Positions 54,422 to 59,540 of a stretch of DNA of 64,000 nt are shown here, piece by piece. The position numbers and the translations under genes were made by a program. The stretch is from Exiguobacterium sp. s146 (GTDB lineage Bacteria; Bacillota; Bacilli; Exiguobacteriales; Exiguobacteriaceae): positions 248,001 to 312,000 of the forward strand of contig NZ_JACSMA010000001.1 in assembly GCF_018618415.1 (NCBI RefSeq), written 5' to 3'. The stretch's first letter is position 1, and the number at the start of each line of letters is the position of its first letter. The notes under the pieces are model-generated. The model did no database searches and was not told where the DNA came from. It was given only the letters and a program-made list of their open reading frames with translations.

Positions 54422-56131
54422 ATGAAAAATTTAAAAATGTCAAAAAAATTAGCAGTACTTATTAGTGTCTTCATCACGATGCTTGTGCTCGTGGCCACAC
54501 TTAGTCATGTCTTCATGGGACGCATGGCCGATGCGGGAGAATCGATTTATGAAGACAGGTTATTGCCGATTCGCGCGCTCGGTCAAATTCGGACGGATAA
54601 CCGTGCCTTGGACGGGTATATGCTCGAATTAATGTTGGCGACCGATTCGAGTCGGAATGAAGAACTACAGGCAAGTATCACCGAACGTCGTGACAGCATC
54701 GGGACGAACCTGGCGCTGTTCAATGAGACGTTCGCCTCGATCGATACCGAGATGCAAGGACGTGTCGACGATTTGAACACTGAGATTGCGGATTACTTGG
54801 AAGGGACGGAACTCGTGCTCCAGCCGGCGTTACGTGGTGAGAACGCCGCAGCGTATCGCATCTATTTGAGTGACTTGCGACCGATCCGTCAAGACCTCGT
54901 CGAGACGGCGACGGTCGTCATGGATGGGATCAACCAAGAGGCCGAGACGGCCAGCAAAACGATGCAGAACGATCGAACCGAATCCGTTACGTGGTTCTGG
55001 GTGCTCGTCGCCATTGGGGCATTCGTCTCGATTGGGCTCGGCGTCTACATCACGCGCCTCATCGTCCGTCCAATTCGAGAATTGAATGGACTCATGAGCC
55101 GTGCCGGGGCCGGTGATTTGAGGGTCGACAGTACGTACACCTCGCGCGACGAGATTGGTTCTCTCGCTAACTCGTTCAACGAGATGAAAGACAGCTTGCG
55201 TGACTTGATTGGAAACGTCACGACGACAGCGGGACGCGTCGCGACGTCATCAGATGATTTGAAATCGAACGTCGAAGAGACGACAAAAGCGACTGAGATG
55301 GTCGCTGTGACGATGGAGGAGATCGCCTCCGGTTCGGTCCGTCAATTGACGCGTGTGAAGGAATCGAGTAGCACGCTCACTGAACTGACGAACGGGATTC
55401 ATCACGTCTCGGACAGTGCCCAGCATATGACTGAACTGTCGGACGGGGCACTTCAAAAAGTCGGGACCGGCAACGAGTTGATTGTGACGCTCGAGTCCCA
55501 ACTCGAGGCGATGAACGAGAAAGTGAAAGCGTTGCAGACGGTCATCGGTCAACTCGATGTTCGTTCGCAAGAAATCGGCAGCATCACCGGTACGATTTCT
55601 GGCATCGCCGAACAGACGAACTTGCTCGCCTTGAACGCGGCCATCGAAGCAGCCCGGGCCGGCGACCACGGACGCGGCTTCGCCGTCGTCGCCTCAGAAG
55701 TCCGGAAACTCGCCGAAGAGTCGGCTGTCGCGACGAAACGAATCTCAGGGTTGATTGGAGACACACAGACGGAGACGAAACAAGCCGTGCAGACGATGCA
55801 CGTCGTCGAGAGCGAGATGGACCACAGCGTCACGAACGTCCAACAGGCTGGGCTAGCATTCGAAGACATCAAGCGGGCGATTGAAGAGGTCGGTCAAAAA
55901 GTCGAGGAAGTGTCAGGCGCTGTCCAAGAGATGGCAGCCGGGGCGACCGAGATTTTACAATCGGTGAACGAGATTCAAGGAATTACGGAGACGACGGCGA
56001 CCGACACCGAGAACACGTCGGCGGCGACGGAAGAACAGATGGCGTCGATGGAAGAGATCACGGCATCGGCCCAAGAGCTGTCGAACATGGCAGACGAGAT
56101 GCGCCAAATGACAAAACGATTCCACGTATGA
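54422..56131 (+). CDS. Methyl-accepting chemotaxis protein
   Basis: A 569-residue chemoreceptor with membrane helices at about 12-33 and 189-210, a four-helix-bundle type sensor between them, HAMP and a signalling domain. The tip [20 protein letters not shown] is intact. GGGAGGGA precedes the ATG. The upstream CTACGATAA resembles the -10 seen at flhO, so SigD control is possible. The 3' terminator marks the left edge of the AT-rich cassette. Confidence 0.92.
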
Positions 56132-56135
56132 CGGA

Positions 56136-56169
56136 CAGGCAGGTCGCCCATCGACCTGCCTGCTTTTTT
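56136..56169 (+). terminator. Terminator after the chemoreceptor, left copy of a duplicated hairpin
   Basis: CAGGCAGGTCG and CGACCTGCCTG form a perfect 11-bp stem with a 5-base loop, followed by CTTTTTT. The identical stem recurs at 59513-59538. Confidence 0.92.
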
Positions 56170-56344
56170 AGATTGAACTCCGTTTTATAGAATCGTAGCA
56201 ACTTAGGGACCCTAGGCGTTAGTCACATTAATCTATCAGGCGAGGGTCATTGAGTGGATGAATTTACCATAGGTAGTTCGTCATAATCGACTGAATACTT
56301 TTTATGTAAAATGAATCAAATTGTAATAATCTGTTATCGGATTG

Positions 56345-56372
56345 TTGAATTTAATGTGAACTATGCTAGATT
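56345..56372 (+). promoter_or_regulatory. Promoter of the secreted-peptide gene
   Basis: TTGAAT and the extended -10 TGCTAGATT are separated by 16 bases, 57 bases before the peptide start. The region 56172-56344 upstream is AT-rich with no gene. Confidence 0.5.
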
Positions 56373-56428
56373 TTATGTGTATCAACTCTTTGAATTTCAA
56401 AAATTTAACAAGAAAGAAGGAATGTGTG

Positions 56429-56758
56429 ATGAACAAGAAGACAAAACGATTTGCGAGTTCAGCTTTAGTGGTCGGCGCGCTTTTAGTAGGCGCAGGGTCT
56501 GCCTCGGCAGCGACGTTCGGTACGGCATCTAGTGGGGCGTCTACAGTAGAATCATTCCAGATCAAGTACAATGGTGCGGCTTGGAACTACAGTAATTCAA
56601 AATACAAATCTACTTCGTTCAAATATACGCGCAACGGTAGAACGTTGTTAAGCAAAGTAGCCTACAGCACAAAAGTGACAGGCTCTGTTTGGGACGATTT
56701 GAGATGGGGAGACAAGTACACAACGAAGTTCAGCTGGGCTCGAGGCGCACTGAAATAA
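56429..56758 (+). CDS. Secreted cationic Trp/Tyr-rich peptide, candidate bacteriocin
   Basis: A 109-residue precursor with a Sec signal (MNKKTKRF, hydrophobic core, cleavage near ASA-A at 27/28). The mature chain of about 82 residues has 13 Lys/Arg against 4 Asp/Glu, four Trp, many Tyr and no Cys. It contains YNGAAWNYSNSKYKSTSFKY and ends SWARGALK. Size, export type and charge resemble lactococcin 972-like bacteriocins, but the typical motifs are not clearly present, so this may be a new family. AGAAAGAAGG precedes the ATG. Membrane and ABC genes follow. Confidence 0.7.
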   Translation: MNKKTKRFASSALVVGALLVGAGSASAATFGTASSGASTVESFQIKYNGAAWNYSNSKYKSTSFKYTRNGRTLLSKVAYSTKVTGSVWDDLRWGDKYTTKFSWARGALK

Positions 56759-56785
56759 GTCTTCTGGTGAAGGTAGAGGGTGTGA

Positions 56786-56825
56786 ATCAGACCCGATAGG
56801 TATGTTCCTACAGGGTCTGAATTCA
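56786..56825 (+). other. Stem-loop between the peptide gene and the transporter genes
   Basis: TCAGACCC pairs with GGGTCTGA, with a further inner AGG/CCT pairing and flanking GAA/TTC. No T-run follows, so it may stabilise the peptide mRNA or reduce read-through into the transporter genes. Confidence 0.5.
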
Positions 56826-56922
56826 TGTCTACATGATGTGATGGATTTCTATGTTTAATGGAGTGGCAGCTTACTTTTTTAACTCATAAATTATAACTTA
56901 CTGTTTTTTTTAGTTAGGTAGT

Positions 56923-56964
56923 TGGCATTTATTCATACGTGTTACCATAAATTTATAAATGCCA
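56923..56964 (+). promoter_or_regulatory. 10-bp inverted repeat in front of the transporter genes
   Basis: TGGCATTTAT at 56923 and ATAAATGCCA at 56955 are perfect complements with 22 bases between, ending just before the AAGGAG ribosome site. It could be an operator or an RNA hairpin that controls translation of the 4-TM protein. Confidence 0.45.
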
Positions 56965-56981
56965 TCTGTAAGGAGTAGGTC

Positions 56982-57422
56982 ATGAAATATTCTTTATTTA
57001 GATTTAATGATGTGTTTGAAGCTTCTGCCATCTATCTCTTCTGTTTTGTCTCAAATTTGATATTGATGTATGTGCAGACTGTAGATTTAGAAGGTTCGTT
57101 TATCTTAATGTCATTCATTGAGAGCATTGTTGACTATCAATTGATCATCAGCATTCTTCTCACGTTTATCATGATGATCTTCCATTATCAATTTTTAAAT
57201 CGGAGAAAAACAGAGATTTCTTGCCGCATCCTTGTCGGAGACACGAAACAAAAAGTGATTCGTCGCTACATGTTAAATAGTCTAGCGATCTTGGGGTTCA
57301 GTTTTTTATTATCCCTTTCATTGAACTTTTACTTAGATTTGAATGTAACCAGCAACCTTTATCTCGTCTTGCTGTTTATCGTATATATATTAATTAGTGC
57401 AGGTCAGGTGAAAAGAGAATGA
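56982..57422 (+). CDS. 4-TM membrane protein with FtsX-like loop
   Basis: A 146-residue protein with four membrane helices (about 13-33, 52-71, 95-116, 123-142). The cytoplasmic loop RRKTEISCRILVGDTKQKVIRRY looks like the coupling loop of FtsX/MacB permeases. It may be one half of a split permease or an immunity protein. GTAAGGAGTAGG precedes the ATG. Its stop overlaps the next start (ATGA). The DNA is markedly more AT-rich than surrounding genes. Confidence 0.7.
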   Translation: MKYSLFRFNDVFEASAIYLFCFVSNLILMYVQTVDLEGSFILMSFIESIVDYQLIISILLTFIMMIFHYQFLNRRKTEISCRILVGDTKQKVIRRYMLNSLAILGFSFLLSLSLNFYLDLNVTSNLYLVLLFIVYILISAGQVKRE

Positions 57423-58639
57423 GAATTTTACACTTTTTTATAACAAGAATATTTTTGAAGCGATGGATCCTTGTTCTGGGAATGATCTTATTACTTTTCC
57501 TAGCGAATTACCTCTCTTTTAGTGCCACGCGTTCCATTATTTCGACTGCTCAAGGCTATCAAGAAATTGAAACGTTCAATCGAGAAGGGAATTATATCGC
57601 CAATTTAAATCCAGAGAGTGAAGCCGATTTTGATCGAATCGACATCAAGGAAACGCGAAAGCTTTATGAGTATTTAAATAACAATCATACATATGCCTTA
57701 CAAGCTGACGGCTTTACGACCTCTTTAGAGAATGAACATGATATGGAAGTGTCGTTTAATTACATCAATGAAGAGGCGTACCAACTCAATCAATTCAAGT
57801 TGGCGCAAGGCGATCAGTTGAACTTTGATTATCAATTTAAACAAGATGACATTCCGGTTCTGATAGGTGGAGGTCTGGCTTCAACGTATCCGGTAGGATC
57901 TAAAATCGAAATCACGGATCCGGTCACCCAACAAGCGGTTGATTTGAGAGTGCAAGGGGTCTTGGAGAAAAATACGCACCGCTCGAACTTTTATGCACCG
58001 AATTCAAAGAACTACTATAACTTTTCAGTCATCGTCCCCGTCAACGAGCCGTTTATTCAAAGTGCGGGTCTTGACCTCCACTTGAACGGTTTGATGGACA
58101 TCGTGTTGCTCGATTCGACGAAAGAAGAAGCAACGAAGTTGAATGAACAGATTCAGAACAATCTAGGGTTGGACTTTAACTTTTTTAGCCAACAAGAAAA
58201 CTTTAATTACTTTGAAGATTATTATGTAAGCTCTTTGAAGATGATTAGTGCGATTACGCTCGTGTTACTCGTCGTCATTGTGTGTCTGGCGACTTGGAAT
58301 ACATTAATCAGTGTTCGGCTCATGATTAAAGATTTTACGGTCAATTTATTAGTGGGATTAAGTTACTCCAAACTGAGAACCATTTTTTATAGCTACTTTG
58401 CGATTTTGTTCTCGATCAACCTCGTCATCTTATTCGCAATCACCGCCTTCAATCGATACGGTTTTTGGATGAGGAAAGATTCGATTTTTGCCACGTATGG
58501 GGTATTTGGCTTAATCAGTATGGATTGGATCGCTTTCTTAGGTGTTCTATTGATTGACGTGATCATAGGGGTGATGATTGTGGAACTGGCGCTCAAAAAA
58601 ATCAAGGGTATTCCAATCTCGGTGGGGGTTTTGCAATGA
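57419..58639 (+). CDS. MacB/FtsX-like ABC transporter permease
   Basis: A 406-residue permease with one N-terminal membrane helix (about 14-34), an outer domain of about 240 residues and three C-terminal helices (about 275-300, 322-345, 365-390), the MacB topology. Such permeases export or sense peptides rather than import nutrients. The outer domain has no family I know. It overlaps both neighbours by 4 bases, so it is translated with the ATPase. Codon use is AT-rich. Confidence 0.8.
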   Translation: MRILHFFITRIFLKRWILVLGMILLLFLANYLSFSATRSIISTAQGYQEIETFNREGNYIANLNPESEADFDRIDIKETRKLYEYLNNNHTYALQADGFTTSLENEHDMEVSFNYINEEAYQLNQFKLAQGDQLNFDYQFKQDDIPVLIGGGLASTYPVGSKIEITDPVTQQAVDLRVQGVLEKNTHRSNFYAPNSKNYYNFSVIVPVNEPFIQSAGLDLHLNGLMDIVLLDSTKEEATKLNEQIQNNLGLDFNFFSQQENFNYFEDYYVSSLKMISAITLVLLVVIVCLATWNTLISVRLMIKDFTVNLLVGLSYSKLRTIFYSYFAILFSINLVILFAITAFNRYGFWMRKDSIFATYGVFGLISMDWIAFLGVLLIDVIIGVMIVELALKKIKGIPISVGVLQ

Positions 58640-59298
58640 GTAGCATCATCAAGTTAGAAATTCAGAAAAAAGCGTTCGATAAGAAAGGATTTTCCATCCT
58701 GCATGATTTTGAATTAGAGGTTCAACCGGGGGAAAAGCTCTCGATAATAGGGGAGTCTGGCGTCGGGAAGACCTCGTTGCTCAATATCATCGGGTTGCTG
58801 GATACACGCTACCAAGGGAGCTATGAGCTATTTGATTCATCTGTTCAGGGGCTGTCACGGGATACATTAGCGAAATGGCGTAATCAAAAGATTGGATTCG
58901 TGCTTCAGGAATCGGCACTCATTGATTCGCTGACCATCGAGGACAATATTAAGTTACCGCTCATGTATGCCAATCTCGAAAGAGACCCACGCGCCCAGGA
59001 ACACTTCAAGCGGATTGTAAGTAAGATTGGAATCGAGTCCATTTTGAAGAAGAAACCGTTGGAATGTTCGGGCGGACAACGGTCGCGAGCTGTTTTTGCG
59101 AGGGCTGTCATTATGAATCCCCAAATCATTTTATCCGATGAGCCGACTGCGTCACTAGACCCGGAAAACAAAGAGCGTATCATCGATTTATTGTTTGAGA
59201 TGAATCGCGAGTTCAATACGACAGTGATTACCGTGACACATGATTTGGACGTGGCCAATCGTCACGAGCGAATCATTAAGCTGAAAAGGAGCGAATAA
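58636..59298 (+). CDS. ABC transporter ATPase (MacB/LolD type)
   Basis: A 220-residue ATPase. Walker A is GESGVGKTS near residue 39, the Q-loop is FVLQESALIDSLT near 92, the signature is CSGGQRSRAVFARA near 141, and Walker B ends in LSDEPTASLDPEN with the switch His in VTHDLD. It pairs with the overlapping permease gene to form a peptide exporter or self-protection pump. Confidence 0.88.
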   Translation: MSSIIKLEIQKKAFDKKGFSILHDFELEVQPGEKLSIIGESGVGKTSLLNIIGLLDTRYQGSYELFDSSVQGLSRDTLAKWRNQKIGFVLQESALIDSLTIEDNIKLPLMYANLERDPRAQEHFKRIVSKIGIESILKKKPLECSGGQRSRAVFARAVIMNPQIILSDEPTASLDPENKERIIDLLFEMNREFNTTVITVTHDLDVANRHERIIKLKRSE

Positions 59299-59299
59299 A

Positions 59300-59455
59300 A
59301 TGGGATTCATCGCAATGGTCTTGTCCTTCCTATTCGGTATCTTCTTTACCGTGATTGGTGTGGTTCGTAGAAAACAAAACATGTTTTACAAATTGTTGAT
59401 TGTCTTAGGGGTAGCTCTCCTCGTTGTAGCAGTATATCTGGCAAGGCCGCAATGA
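59300..59455 (+). CDS. Two-TM protein of 51 residues, candidate immunity protein
   Basis: The frame reads MGFIAMVLSFLFGIFFTVIG, then VVRRKQNMFYKLL and a second hydrophobic segment IVLGVALLVVAVYLA. It starts right after the ATPase stop behind AAAAGGAGCG and ends before the shared terminator. Small two-helix basic membrane proteins often give immunity to bacteriocins; that role is an inference from position. Confidence 0.6.
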   Translation: MGFIAMVLSFLFGIFFTVIGVVRRKQNMFYKLLIVLGVALLVVAVYLARPQ

Positions 59456-59512
59456 GGACGGACTCAATCCGTTTCCGACTATGGGGAGGCGGGGAAAATA
59501 AGGAATGCCAAA

Positions 59513-59538
59513 CAGGCAGGTCGCCATCGACCTGCCTG
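59513..59538. terminator. Terminator at the right cassette edge, second copy of a duplicated hairpin
   Basis: CAGGCAGGTCG and CGACCTGCCTG form the same 11-bp stem as at 56136, here with a 4-base loop and followed by TTTT. It serves the cassette and the convergent DUF1801 gene. Confidence 0.85.
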
Positions 59539-59540
59539 TT

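Follow-up and report, generated by a model that had tools for sequence, protein, structure and literature searches.

A mobile five-gene cassette of Exiguobacterium that probably encodes a Sec-secreted bacteriocin and its ABC immunity transporter

The DNA considered here, referred to below as the window, is a stretch of 64,000 nucleotides from Exiguobacterium sp. s146 (contig NZ_JACSMA010000001.1, positions 248,001 to 312,000) in which an AT-rich cassette of five open reading frames (ORFs) occupies positions 56429-59455 of the forward strand. The first gene encodes a small secreted peptide and is followed by genes for a four-segment membrane protein (gene 2), a permease (gene 3), an ATPase (gene 4) and a 51-residue protein (gene 5). 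The cassette is best explained as a horizontally moved unit that pairs a new family of Sec-secreted bacteriocin with an ATP-binding cassette (ABC) immunity transporter, following the lactococcin 972 loci in plan and not in sequence; the probability of this reading is put at roughly two in three. A bacteriocin-like peptide accompanied by its own ABC exporter had been proposed in the original prediction, made from the same DNA, and the exporter part of that proposal is probably wrong.

The gene organization is largely as first described. All five genes point in one direction, with a G+C content of 0.375-0.42 per kb against 0.50-0.57 for the neighbouring kb, and the last four are tightly packed, genes 2 and 3 as well as genes 3 and 4 overlapping by 4 bp and genes 4 and 5 being spaced by 1 bp. 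The cassette does lie where it was announced, its beginning having been set slightly early at 56345; the conserved start preceded by a ribosome-binding site is at 56429. Because these frames are found again in other genera with low nonsynonymous change, at mostly saturated synonymous sites, the ORFs are regarded as being beyond chance. In the comparison with E. chiriqhucha, for which synonymous sites are unsaturated, the peptide has a ratio of nonsynonymous to synonymous substitution rates (dN/dS) of 0.047 and the permease one of 0.084. Constraint on gene 5 is weaker, values in other pairs reaching 0.34. Searches of the five products in Pfam and NCBIfam recognised the ATPase alone, the other four giving chance-level matches or none.

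The original prediction had suggested a search for the same five genes in other genomes. Relatives were collected by a permease pattern scan of genome contigs (11 loci), a protein search (three plasmids) and whole-genome searches, yielding 23 transporter loci (handles in L and G below) once repeats and one remote MacB-type relative (L071) were removed. The count also omits weak peptide matches in unrelated frames (L002, L009-L016, L063, L064) and a viral contig that ends before the permease (L072). The repeats were those of the window (L001, L003, L073), G008 (L007, L017, L066, L074), G007 (L008, L065, L078), G016 (L075), G178 (L060), G223 (L061) and G369 (L062, L120). The 22 longest loci all differ in their permease DNA, the closest pair being L026-L030 (98.8%). 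An intact peptide gene is present in 11 of the 23 loci, each time followed by the other four genes, whose order does not vary. These loci belong to the window, two further Exiguobacterium, Pseudalkalibacillus, Terribacillus, Cerasibacillus and two other genomes, and to plasmids in Mammaliicoccus sciuri, Enterococcus casseliflavus and Macrococcoides canis. The closest named relative is E. chiriqhucha, whose permease stands at 90% to that of the window. When 398 genomes of the class were searched with the peptide, full-length copies were obtained in five (the window's own included), all with a permease about 1 kb away; weaker matches were confined to a fragment in G369 and two chance-like cases (G133, G003). 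The three plasmids likewise carry the full-length peptide with transporter genes, and no full-length peptide without them was found among the 398 genomes or the plasmids.

In the 12 remaining loci the transporter stands alone or beside a damaged peptide gene; five of them retain a remnant or display a deletion and seven show no credible trace of the peptide gene (G016, L022, L024, L027, G019, G473 and G421). In L019 (Neobacillus) the peptide start is lost and a stop codon is present, L023 has a 5' deletion leaving the last 16 peptide codons, and L025 misses the peptide gene and keeps its upstream region. About 430 bp comprising the peptide gene and its margins are missing from L026 (Macrococcoides goetzii) relative to plasmid pSD607, the following 3.1 kb (genes 2-5) being 97% identical, and G369 contains an inverted peptide fragment of 34 codons. 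Since the permease tree cannot settle the number of losses, their independence rests on these different forms. A transporter kept after loss of the peptide fits producer immunity better than export. The alternative in which the transporter exports or processes the peptide can appeal to the tight linkage of the genes in 11 of 11 peptide-intact loci and is nevertheless considered very unlikely: the N-terminus of the peptide itself resembles a signal, loss of the peptide by several distinct routes has left the transporter in place, and the Pfam matches of the ATPase include no peptidase domain. Lactococcin 972-like peptides are moreover thought to be exported by Sec (PMC11796350). Transporter relatives devoid of the peptide had been named in the original prediction as evidence against its proposal; with 12 such loci at hand the bacteriocin interpretation survives, and the transporter is more probably devoted to immunity than to export.

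The same 12 loci would suit another explanation, namely a transporter that confers resistance to antimicrobial peptides in general and accompanies an unrelated secreted envelope protein by chance. This appears quite unlikely given that, in the genomes and plasmids searched, the full-length peptide was never seen apart from the transporter genes and that five of the peptide-less loci betray a former peptide gene. In three of the loci without a credible trace (L022, L024 and L027), a small gene for a helix-turn-helix (HTH) regulator precedes the transporter genes upstream of gene 2; it corresponds to Pfam HTH_26 in L022 and was recognised by eye in L024 and L027, the L027 copy being broken.

A number of observations weigh against the bacteriocin and immunity interpretation. 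The loci were mostly fetched by means of the permease, which disfavours the detection of loci that no longer have the transporter; searches started from the peptide, which serve as a control for this sampling, found few peptides. Two of the peptide-less loci, G473 and G421, have a broken transporter as well, and the difference displayed by L026 might, less likely, reflect a gain in the plasmid instead of a loss. The permease tree of 22 rows is poorly resolved, with intact and peptide-less labels scattered over it (for the intact label, 212 of 500 shuffles are as low), and its starred branches, in a version where L026 is labelled 'absent', force only two changes. The permease dN/dS of peptide-less loci against the window (0.05-0.08) relies on near-saturated dS and includes the time before the loss, and the L026 and L030 permeases differ by 6 synonymous and 9 nonsynonymous changes (pN/pS 0.37); for these reasons selection on the transporter after the loss is not established. 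The faster change of the permease relative to the peptide, described below, is reversed in the close pair L020-L021, where the mature peptide is 83% and the permease 88% identical. Finally, the fold model of the peptide is weak, with a predicted local distance difference test (pLDDT) of 60 and a predicted template modelling score of 0.54, and has no specific fold match.

The N-terminus of the peptide is of the Sec type, with a basic start, a hydrophobic segment at residues 8-26 (hydropathy) and an ASA-A site located by eye. Cleavage after A27, again placed by eye, would release a mature peptide of 82 residues with six Tyr, a computed charge of about +8.8 at pH 7 and an isoelectric point of about 10; the absence of Cys, the four Trp and the net positive charge announced in the original prediction are all confirmed by the computed values. 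Across 11 peptide sequences, the viral one included, 29 positions are invariant. The mature region of the window is 74-84% identical to the plasmid copies of Mammaliicoccus, Enterococcus and Macrococcoides, against 61-63% for the permease.

Bce-type transporters can sense peptides. The peptide could accordingly be imagined as a signal or sensed ligand and the transporter as its sensor, and the conservation of the mature region over a long range (80% identity in the Enterococcus copy, against 63% for the permease) would agree with such a role. It is hard to reconcile with the surroundings of the cassette: the genes checked beside the block, a chemotaxis receptor and a VTT-domain gene upstream and DUF1801, DUF2200 and MarR genes downstream, include no histidine kinase or response regulator, and the shared block contains no regulator. 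Signalling is held to be very improbable.

No credible family could be assigned to the peptide, in line with the lack of clear family motifs noted originally. A Pfam search at E<=1 gave no family, the same search with nine relatives at E<=10 gave three chance-level families (the best being DUF4179, E 0.12) with PF09683 absent, NCBIfam at E<=10 gave no match, and a PF09683 search of G000 found none. Two other candidates were discarded. PHROG 11880 (E 0.009) matched genomes mostly in short N-terminal stretches of longer frames and had no match in the genome of the window, and two of its real members read differently. The UPF0312/YceI family, suggested by PDB sequence matches (E 0.006 and 0.1) over residues 10-69, that is the signal and the start of the mature region, faded to E 1.2 when a profile was used. 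No article describing the peptide was recognised among open-licence PMC papers.

The lactococcin 972 and streptococcin B loci (lcn972-orf2-orf3 and scbABC) resemble the cassette in that an unmodified Sec-type peptide is followed by genes for a permease and an ATPase. The likeness claimed in the original prediction holds for this plan and fails for the sequence: membership of the peptide in PF09683 was rejected after an hhalign profile comparison in which 86 of 200 shuffles were at least as good. The lactococcin 972-type permease is a single chain of 661-768 residues with two outer domains in six loci, whereas the cassette has chains of 146 and 406 residues, the former without a large outer domain, as well as the extra gene 5. 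The best NCBIfam match of the ATPase is TIGR03608, at 193 bits against a cut-off of 254.85. One true lactococcin 972-type ATPase passes with 285.5 bits; because a generic MacB-type ATPase has the same best match (233 bits), the name is uninformative and was dropped as support for kinship.

Were the peptide a genuine lactococcin 972 relative too divergent for sequence models to recognise, it would still be a bacteriocin with immunity, only of an old family, and in this the hypothesis overlaps the preferred reading. The lactococcin 972 beta-sandwich consists of two three-stranded sheets. The peptide model, of low confidence as noted above, is all-beta with six strands, and a beta-sandwich is what the family is said to form (PMC11796350); together with the shared plan this speaks for a hidden member. 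The profile comparison, the one-chain permeases and the ATPase score just described make it unlikely all the same. The Foldseek and VIA-align rows for the model are weak, and lactococcin 972 (2LGN) does not appear in the fold-match rows shown, which excludes nothing.

The assignment of the transporter genes relies on several comparisons. Hydropathy plots display four segments in gene 2, one N-terminal and four C-terminal segments in gene 3 and two in gene 5, as anticipated for the 4-transmembrane and the 51-residue proteins. A permease profile matches the permease of G199 over residues 102-238 (E 3.1e-7), and tblastn extends this match over residues 85-401 at 22% identity; the G199 permease contains Pfam FtsX, and the cassette permease is linked through it to the MacB/FtsX type with no direct Pfam FtsX match of its own. 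LolCE is matched as a trace in 9 of 16 relatives (best E 1.2e-4), well short of the cut-off, and a structure model of the permease was too poor to be used (pLDDT 45). Gene 2 contains a conserved RILVGD loop and gave no family match of note in Pfam or NCBIfam. Against lactococcin 972-type permeases it obtained a profile score of 24.7 (best of 30 shuffles 24.2) and the permease 27.0 (shuffles 23.1), both at a probability of <5%, and gene 2 and the window permease do not match each other in a profile comparison. The division of the permease over two genes, proposed originally, is retained as an inference, gene 2 being the likely partner half that lacks a large outer domain; the profile comparisons of gene 2 with FtsX-type halves are not convincing. 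The ATPase is recognised as ABC_tran (2.6e-26) and has MacB, LolD, BceA (1.3e-37) and PsdA (4.8e-37) among its PDB relatives; Padloc matched the ATPase only, generically. Gene 5, probably an accessory component, is present in 11 of 11 peptide-intact loci and in 7 of the 12 others.

BceB has one large outer domain, and the BceAB permease is a single chain of ten transmembrane segments. The cassette resembles BceAB and PsdAB in its class of ATPase, in its single large outer domain and probably in target protection, as described for BceAB (PMC7038271); the ATPase likeness is not specific, as MacB and LolD score alike. It differs from them in that its permease is not a single chain, a peptide gene travels along and the neighbours checked hold no kinase-regulator pair. 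In immunity transporters of the Mr10EFGH/AS-48 type, one ABC transporter situated beside the bacteriocin gene is common to several enterocins and clusters (PMC10598978). By description alone these are comparable to the cassette; their peptides have a saposin-like fold (PMC10598978). For the lactococcin 972 loci, orf2 and orf3 were proposed as putative immunity genes (PMC4055356), and PMC11796350 reports scb strains without a functional peptide and states that the role of genes two and three awaits experimental verification.

On these grounds the following mechanism is proposed for the bacteriocin cassette. The peptide, as its signal-like N-terminus suggests, would be exported by Sec and released as a cationic, Trp- and Tyr-rich, probably all-beta protein of about 9 kDa that would attack the envelope of Gram-positive neighbours. 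The ATPase, the permease bearing the large outer domain and the four-segment protein would assemble into a MacB/Bce-type transporter. Instead of exporting the peptide, this transporter would free the membrane or the cell-wall precursor of the producer from it, self-immunity being proposed because of the one-sided loss, the class of transporter and precedent. Strains having lost the peptide and kept the transporter would be resistant non-producers. A bolder version is judged less likely than not: the peptide would represent a separate class of Sec-secreted protein bacteriocins, unrelated to described families and conserved by its binding to a Gram-positive target that is hard to change, for instance a lipid II cycle intermediate, and its two-chain immunity transporter with one outer domain would be spreading as an orphan resistance, also on phage. 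Should the peptide prove antibacterial, the protein bacteriocins would gain a small Cys-free member whose recombinant production should be simple, together with its cognate immunity transporter and, for comparison, natural peptide-less transporter loci. With the cassette one could then test directly by what means a MacB/Bce-type ABC transporter protects cells from a protein that acts at their surface.

The space between the peptide gene and the transporter genes contains two elements shared between loci (Table 1). Ten loci conserve the hairpin at 56787-56820, 3' of the peptide gene, with 94.1% of the cells paired; neither this proportion nor the covariation score was reached by any of 500 shuffles, and the fold z is -4.3. 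Two pairs are changed on both sides, a number that is not clearly above the shuffles (reached by 28 of 500; 397 of 500 for pair types). A search of Rfam up to E 1 gave no match, the run of five U directly after the hairpin is missing in nine of ten aligned copies, and other hairpins were seen by eye at the same place in the plasmid copies. The hairpin may reduce the transcription that continues past the peptide gene into genes 2-5, and may in this way set the ratio of peptide to immunity transcripts. The segment at 56919-56981 is shared in an alignment of seven loci, L020 and L060 lacking its last part. Its position would perhaps suit a promoter belonging to the transporter genes; a consensus promoter scan did not call it and showed no excess overall (11 against 8.0, standard deviation 3.1).

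Table 1. Features of the cassette and of its borders in the window
Feature	Position	Strand	Basis or detail
Left border of the block: terminator hairpin that follows the methyl-accepting chemotaxis gene upstream	56136..56162	+	11-pair stem followed by a T-run
Peptide precursor, secreted, cationic, 109 aa	56429..56758	+	Predicted signal ~56429-56509, mature region from 56510; conservation, cleavage site by eye
Conserved RNA hairpin, possible attenuator	56787..56820	+	Covariation in 10 sequences, fold z
Shared segment directly preceding gene 2, which may hold a promoter and a ribosome-binding site for the transporter genes	56919..56981	+	7-locus alignment
Gene 2, 146 aa, four membrane segments, probably the permease half that has no large outer domain	56982..57422	+	Hydropathy
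Gene 3, 406-aa permease, MacB/FtsX type, large extracellular domain	57419..58639	+	Hydropathy, profile link to the G199 permease
Gene 4, 220-aa ABC ATPase, MacB/LolD/BceA kind	58636..59298	+	ABC_tran 2.6e-26
Gene 5, 51-aa protein with two transmembrane segments, probable accessory role	59300..59455	+	Hydropathy, recurrence across loci
Right border of the block: repeat of the terminator hairpin, ahead of the convergent DUF1801 gene	59512..59539		Hairpin at both block ends in 4/4 carrier Exiguobacterium

Mobility is apparent from the occurrence of the cassette on three plasmids and, in part, on one viral contig and from empty sites in Exiguobacterium. The left neighbour of the block is a methyl-accepting chemotaxis gene (Pfam MCPsignal) and the right neighbour is the convergent DUF1801 gene, and the gap between them constitutes an insertion spot (56130-59540 in the window); sites occupied by the block have the border hairpin twice. 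Seven of the 19 Exiguobacterium genomes have the flanking genes 38-48 bp apart with a single hairpin and no block; in four the block lies between them, with a hairpin at each end that is identical at both ends in G007 and G008. For the remaining eight the flank covered does not include the chemotaxis gene; G011 and G015 carry other DNA there. The permease DNA of L018, L019, L020, L022 and L023, from four genera (Pseudalkalibacillus, Neobacillus, Terribacillus and Metabacillus), is 93-94% identical in best pairs, which suggests recent transfer; three of these five loci have no intact peptide.

The 47-kb viral contig (L072) encodes a 58%-identical peptide and then a relative of gene 2 (L072:3525-5797) before it ends, the peptide frame having no obvious start codon that would give a full signal. 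No matches were obtained when viral contigs were scanned with the permease and phage records with the peptide. On L072 the two genes adjoin a helix-turn-helix repressor-like gene and an IrrE-like (Peptidase_M78) gene. The cassette of the M. sciuri plasmid (L028:417-5160) is situated in a defence-like neighbourhood, near annotated genes for a DncV-like nucleotidyltransferase, a PemK/MazF toxin and AbiH.

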